Positions 57,382 to 57,535 of a stretch of DNA of 64,000 bases are shown here, one piece after another (the first letter of the stretch is position 1; each line of letters starts with the position of its first letter). The stretch comes from a virus. The notes below the pieces were generated by a model, which saw nothing but the letters and a program-made list of their open reading frames with translations, ran no database searches and was not told the DNA's origin. Location: the IMG/VR virus record IMGVR_UViG_3300046810_000101, positions 103,827 to 167,826 of that record. One strand, given 5' to 3'. The translations under genes and the position numbers were made by a program.

Positions 57382-57535
57382 GGATACCGCCCGATTCACG
57401 CCGGGGGTTGTGGTCGCTGTCCTACCATTAGACCAACTGTCCCGTTCTCCATTGCGACTTAACACGTAGGCGGGCACAGTATCGGAATCGAACCGATATT
57501 AGCGACTTGAGGCTGAAATGATGCTGTCAGTATCC
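57382..57535 (-). tRNA. Circularly permuted tRNA-like locus
   Basis: In transcript order: GGATAC, TGACAGCA, leader, GTCGC, variable TAAT, T-arm ATCGG-TTCGATT-CCGAT (57481-57497), acceptor 3' strand, 26-base linker, acceptor 5' strand GGACAGT, D-arm GGTCTAATGGTAGGAC, GCGAC, then a hairpin and GTATCC. GTCGC/GCGAC is a perfect 5-bp anticodon stem, and acceptor strands pair 6/7 (or nine pairs with one bulge). All parts of a tRNA are present in permuted order with the break in the anticodon loop. Confidence 0.6.

Follow-up and report, generated by a model that had tools for sequence, protein, structure and literature searches.

In red algae and archaea, permuted tRNA genes yield real tRNAs that mature by way of a bulge-helix-bulge motif. 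Chen et al. 2014 reportedly placed Y RNAs near Ro60 in phages as well as in bacteria, so phage RNAs that mimic tRNAs have precedents. Ro60-type proteins are tethered to effectors by Y RNAs, and those of the YrlA type carry a tRNA-like domain (PMC7790460). Class I RNAs are found only in dictyostelids, according to a 2021 survey (PMC7919456), and the tRNAs of Lak megaphages bear introns that Devoto 2019 reported and left unexplained. The analysis presented here links the odd tRNA of one contig to a phage RNA family that is widespread and has a candidate protein partner.

The RNA at the center of this work, unit A, is a framed, circularly permuted, Glu-type tRNA-like RNA at 57382 to 57535 on the minus strand of the window (the whole 64,000-nucleotide stretch analyzed, which belongs to a 167.8-kb contig). 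Read from 57535 down to 57382, it presents its 3′ tRNA half, a linker, and then its 5′ half. A terminal-stem strand, GGATAC (57530 to 57535), is followed by TGACAGCA (57522 to 57529), a variant of the motif N3-CAGCAA, and by a spacer that contains TCAGCC. Next come the 3′ strand of the anticodon stem, GTCGC (57502 to 57506), a 4-base variable loop, a canonical T-arm, ATCGG-TTCGATT-CCGAT (57481 to 57497), and the acceptor 3′ strand, ACTGTGC (57474 to 57480), which lacks CCA. A linker of 31 nucleotides (57443 to 57473; 8 to 28 nucleotides in the orthologues) leads to the acceptor 5′ strand, GGACAGT (57436 to 57442), a Glu-like D-arm, GTCTAATGGTAGGAC (57419 to 57433), the 5′ strand of the anticodon stem, GCGAC (57413 to 57417), a hairpin, CCCG-GCGTGAAT-CGGG (57390 to 57405), and the closing strand GTATCC (57382 to 57387). 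The anticodon stem pairs at all five positions and the acceptor at six of seven, the second pair being G opposite G. The frame of this unit is itself a variant, with CAGCAT and GTATCC-AG. The loop of the 3′ hairpin could pair with the conserved TCAGCC at 57511 to 57516.

A permuted-tRNA scan of the whole contig, a kind of search that an earlier note on this DNA had proposed for the site, ranks unit A first with a score of 20.0, against a maximum of 16.0 in 10 mononucleotide-shuffled genomes. Neither ARAGORN nor the Rfam tRNA model detected the unit, and a DNA-pattern search for its exact arms gave no match. Orthologues occupy the same place, between tRNA-His and a CUA tRNA, in three related contigs (L008, L009, and L011), all with the 3′ half ahead of the 5′ half; in L010, the CUA tRNA comes straight after tRNA-His and unit A is missing. 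Across the window and its orthologues the anticodon stems read GTCGC/GCGAC, GCCGC/GCGGC, and ACCGC/GCGGT, and the acceptors ACTGTGC/GGACAGT, ACCTGTG/TGCGGGT, ACTGCGC/GGGCAGT, and ACACCCC/GGGGTGT. Pairing persists although letters change at two of the five pairs in the anticodon stem, at three of the five in the T-stem, and at five of the seven positions in the acceptor; the sole unpaired site is the second acceptor pair, in two sequences. The permuted order and the pairing described in the earlier note are thus real and are maintained by compensatory change. That note overlooked the 6-bp terminal stem, the TGACAGCA inside it, and the 3′ hairpin, all of which are conserved in the orthologues: the motif is invariant in the four sequences, and the hairpin stem is compensated in L009.

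Unit A sits in a tRNA cluster, and tandem tRNA arrays naturally place a T-arm ahead of a D-arm, so the two halves might be taken for decayed neighbors that once belonged to two different tRNAs. The acceptor strands of this one unit match each other and covary, however, its terminal stems are conserved, and about 70 distinct units of the kind recur. We therefore regard decay as highly implausible, and random tRNA remnants are ruled out by the covariation across orthologues.

Unit A is not alone in the window. Unit B, second in the same scan with a score of 17.5, is a framed permuted Leu-like tRNA mimic (57232 to 57353, minus strand) with a fully paired acceptor (7/7), a GGATGG/CCATCC stem (57348 to 57353 and 57232 to 57237), and the motif TAACAGCAA (57339 to 57347); it is conserved in L008 and L009. 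A third, weaker framed unit (62826 to 62936, minus strand) combines a T-arm, a 5-bp loop-closed acceptor-like stem, and a D-arm-like piece, and its frame recurs at 166800 to 166909 in the contig G001. A long framed RNA (63715 to 63866, minus strand) holds a 128-nucleotide body within a GGATGG/CCATCC stem, carries GAATACAGCAA, and has homologues in L008 to L011; it has no match in Rfam. A group I intron or other catalytic RNA was considered and rejected, since Rfam has no match to unit A, unit B, or the long RNA.

Several other features of the neighborhood deserve record. The minus strand of the window also encodes a tRNA-His (GTG) with an unusual D-arm (57854 to 57927) that ARAGORN and Rfam both missed, a gene that matches the anti-CBASS protein Acb1 (58186 to 58686; PF23474, 112 bits), and an alginate lyase domain (60080 to 60793; PF08787). 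A segment at 57542 to 57645 (minus strand), whose ends TGATGCA/TGCATCA are inverted copies of each other, folds stably (z −1.7) and lacks CAGCAA; its counterpart in L009 is 93% identical over 117 nucleotides. Just ahead of unit A, L008 (~10960 to 11045) and L009 (~11085 to 11150) carry a permuted mini tRNA outside any frame, its acceptor reduced to two base pairs with a GAAA cap. Between units A and B, both contigs also hold a Ser-like tRNA with ~50 extra bases between the anticodon arm and the T-arm, and Pseudomonas phage Milchi (L443:5310 to 5600) has one of this kind.

The frame common to units A and B, a 6-bp terminal stem plus N3-CAGCA, extends far beyond this contig. A scan of IMG/VR for the frame plus a T-loop returned 103 stretches, mostly permuted tRNAs with differing acceptor stems, and phage contigs yielded about 70 distinct permuted tRNA units within the frame. 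In a test on 39 distinct units found without recourse to the acceptor, 28 form at least six of the seven acceptor pairs, versus 2.9% when partners are swapped. Of 104 distinct short framed units, 55 hold an anticodon-type hairpin, versus 4.0 expected from 300 shuffles (maximum 10), and about half of the short units are bare anticodon stem-loops. Longer bodies also occur, among them the one at 63715 to 63866, and at least 20 anticodons are represented across the phages' framed RNAs. A second helix, P2 (e.g., TTTTAAC/GTTAAAA), is found in several units; it was dropped as a defining feature because some units lack it. A scan of genome contigs gave mostly chance matches together with normal-order tRNAs in Sarcina and Lachnospiraceae contigs. 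The framed RNAs look like a large, mostly unlisted phage family that imitates tRNAs or just their anticodon tips.

The contigs of Sarcina sp. DSM 11001 (L376 ~1477 to 1680, and L383) carry an insert-bearing normal-order tRNA and, after it, an anticodon arm of Lys(UUU) within the frame. The linker TCAAGCCTAAA(A/C)AGCAG is repeated between the acceptor strands of different permuted tRNAs in L061, L075, L080, L103, L104, and L125. The phage contig L251 encodes, on its minus strand, a permuted tmRNA (10841 to 11140; RF04321, 92.5 bits) and a Polynucleobacter-1 RNA (9381 to 9527; 83.1 bits).

The framed RNAs co-occur with the gene for a DUF2828-DUF7788 protein, often directly upstream of it. DUF7788 is present in 20 and DUF2828 in 21 of 24 records, most of them selected for these RNAs (a few by other similarity) and not independent lineages, versus the protein in 681 of 50,697 phage records. 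The contig encodes the protein in 47 of the search loci; in the 41 of these with strict framed units, the nearest unit is always on the strand of the gene (41/41) and almost always upstream (40/41), at a median distance of 56 nucleotides versus 720 at random. Framed units stand just upstream of the gene in Listeria phage A511 and Campylobacter phage CP81, and permuted units lie downstream of it in mycobacteriophage JoeDirt, Klebsiella phage KP2025, and Escherichia coli phage VpaE1. In VpaE1, a Felixounavirus, the framed permuted unit (L444:6387 to 6509) is found about 1 kb beyond the DUF2828 gene.

A fold search with an AlphaFold model of this protein (medium confidence, pLDDT 75.7) matched TROVE/Ro60 structures: 9kop (E = 1.2e-7), 9l5y, the Ro60 of Thermus phage phiLo (E = 4.2e-7), and also 2nvo and 1yvr, with moderate TM-scores to Ro60 of 0.35 to 0.58. 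A sequence search of the protein against the PDB found no Ro60, and only the fold search gave it. We hereafter call the protein Ro-like. The gene was not seen in the contig of the window. In the relative G001 it lies at 156296 to 157696, with units A and B about 14 kb away; our contig ends before the equivalent position, so the presence of the gene in the window phage is inferred. The frame, the permuted fold, the covariation, the gene association, and the predicted Ro60 fold of the partner are all read from sequence.

Two observations concern the vicinity of the Ro-like gene. In L085 (6664 to 7135; equivalents in L061, L063, L080, L086, and L087), framed RNAs with bodies of ~139, 207, and 32 nucleotides lie directly upstream of the gene, and the two long bodies have no Rfam match. 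In Listeria phage A511 (L445:2468 to 3019), a ROOL RNA match of 87.5 bits, just below the cut-off, falls near the framed units.

Is unit A a working tRNA or a mimic? The earlier note held that it is a tRNA gene whose precursor, if functional, must be joined in the anticodon loop. The terminal stem and motif would then make up a small intron that is split in two: the exon ends would be cut and ligated into a circular intermediate, RNase P and 3′ processing would open the linker, and CCA would be added. Rejoining the halves does give a proper anticodon loop in many units, such as CU-CUC-AA in L008 (Glu CUC, with a Glu-type D-arm) and the loops of Gly UCC, Asp GUC, and His GUG, but U33 is lost in the window copy and in L009. 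Normal-order tRNAs, too, can be interrupted in the anticodon region by the two strands of the frame, there in reverse succession (among named records, in Vibrio phage D479, Xanthomonas phage XbC2, and the 735-kb record LR756501), and many of these tRNAs regain a perfect anticodon arm once the insert is taken out, as splicing would do. CCA is encoded in 12 of 31 such tRNAs, including Asp in L159, Arg in LR756501, and Lys in XbC2. These inserts, some of them in tRNAs with CCA, lend the splicing reading some probability, and the tRNA introns that Devoto 2019 reported in Lak phages point the same way. An initial test of joining, with swapped exons as the comparison, was diluted by the many units that keep the whole anticodon arm in one half.

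The contig encodes RNA ligases of the Rnl1 type (PF09511; window 32717 to 33304) and the Rnl2 type (PF09414; window 30187 to 30759), both on the minus strand, whereas ligases were not found in some long contigs (G010 and G016). No tRNA-splicing endonuclease family was found; bulge-helix-bulge splicing was rejected with PF01974 in 0 of 19 records, and RtcB is present in only 2 of 20.

The units themselves argue against joining. CCA is encoded in 3 of 69 permuted units, versus 905 of 954 ordinary tRNAs at the same loci, and the acceptors of the permuted units are usually closed by loops of 0 to 8 nucleotides, some of them GNRA or UUCG, with linkers clustered at 4 to 6 bases. The near-absence of CCA and the mostly loop-closed acceptors make the permuted units look uncharged, although CCA might be added after transcription. 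The relatives of the window phage that carry framed RNAs already possess ordinary tRNAs for nearly all amino acids, isoacceptors included, and the same frame encloses bare anticodon arms, which cannot become tRNAs. These data weigh against the claim of obligatory joining. We consider a true permuted tRNA gene unlikely and, judging from these features, a mimic the more likely identity of unit A, which is probably a noncoding, Y-RNA-like tRNA mimic of a phage Ro60-type particle and not a decoding tRNA.

How such a mimic might operate can be sketched. The ends of the transcript would pair through the 6-bp stem beside the N3-CAGCA motif and so build a handle, and the loop that the handle closes would fold into a tRNA-like body, with the chain ends at the anticodon side and the acceptor stem closed by a loop. 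By analogy with bacterial Y RNAs, the phage Ro60-type (DUF2828-DUF7788) protein would hold the handle, and the body would attract a factor that recognizes tRNA. That factor could be an anticodon nuclease, for which the body would be a decoy, or a modification enzyme, or an exonuclease that is thereby redirected. We infer transcription, Ro-like binding, the target, and the decoy role, and we favor, as a guess, an anticodon-nuclease decoy, given how many bodies consist of an anticodon arm and nothing else. Should the bodies prove to be decoys, phages would have in them a general counter to defenses that cut tRNAs. The same frame occurs near a Ro-like gene in named phages of E. coli, Klebsiella, Listeria, Campylobacter, and Mycobacterium, which makes the family directly testable. 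The broadest proposal, a phage Ro60-type particle whose library of tRNA and anticodon-arm mimics absorbs or redirects host anticodon nucleases, and whose RNAs form one ancient class with the Class I RNAs of social amoebae through a shared handle, is a doubtful possibility when taken as a whole.

Of the known systems, the permuted tRNA genes of red algae and archaea share with unit A a 3′ half that comes first and a break at the anticodon side; the phage units differ in that no splicing-endonuclease family was found and CCA is lacking. The Lak tRNA introns resemble the normal-order inserts in being small inserts in phage tRNAs.

Class I RNAs (RF01414) resemble the phage frame in having a 6-bp terminal stem that starts with G, an 11-nucleotide motif ending in ACAGCAA, a variable body, an A before the stem, and CUGU after it; they differ in the kingdom of their hosts and in that phage bodies are anticodon arms or tRNAs. 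RF01414 gives subthreshold matches on phage mini units (20.6 to 29.4 bits versus a cut-off of 41.5). At pairs 5 and 6 of the frame stem, P1, each of the four Watson-Crick types occurs; a G-C pair in first position was built into the search. An A precedes the stem in 117 of 131 short units, and TGT follows it in 104 of 131, the UG itself being required by the search. Unit B has ends of the Class I type; unit A ends in AG. By these sequence likenesses the Class I RNAs are a possible relative of the framed phage RNAs; the likeness may reflect common descent or convergence, and the match would offer the dictyostelid RNAs both a possible relative and a possible partner protein.

The YrlA type (RF02553), the partner of Ro60/Rsr, is close in topology. 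Its tRNA-like module places the T-arm before the D-arm inside a stem that pairs the chain ends, as in unit A, and its gene adjoins a Ro60-type gene, as the framed RNAs adjoin the predicted Ro60-type gene in many phages. The remark in the earlier note that it knew of no standard phage example was accordingly too strong; YrlA matches below the Rfam cut-off fall on framed permuted units of Klebsiella phage KP2025 and mycobacteriophage JoeDirt. This shared topology and these scores, 31 to 49 bits on family members, would suit an RNA of the canonical YrlA type with a Ro60 ortholog bound to it. All members stay below the gathering score of 69, however, the model does not match units A and B even at E ≤ 10, and PF05731 TROVE was found only in Caulobacter phage CcrPW, where the gene sits beside its own tRNA-like RNA, which lacks the frame. 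We judge that identity quite improbable. In contrast to YrlA, the phage RNAs carry the conserved motif N3-CAGCAA, are present more than once in a phage, with certain copies lying 14 kb from the gene, and would have DUF2828-DUF7788 rather than TROVE as their partner. What is new relative to YrlA is that the units of the window are unseen by Rfam, that the bodies extend to bare anticodon arms, and that the frame is like that of Dictyostelium Class I RNAs.
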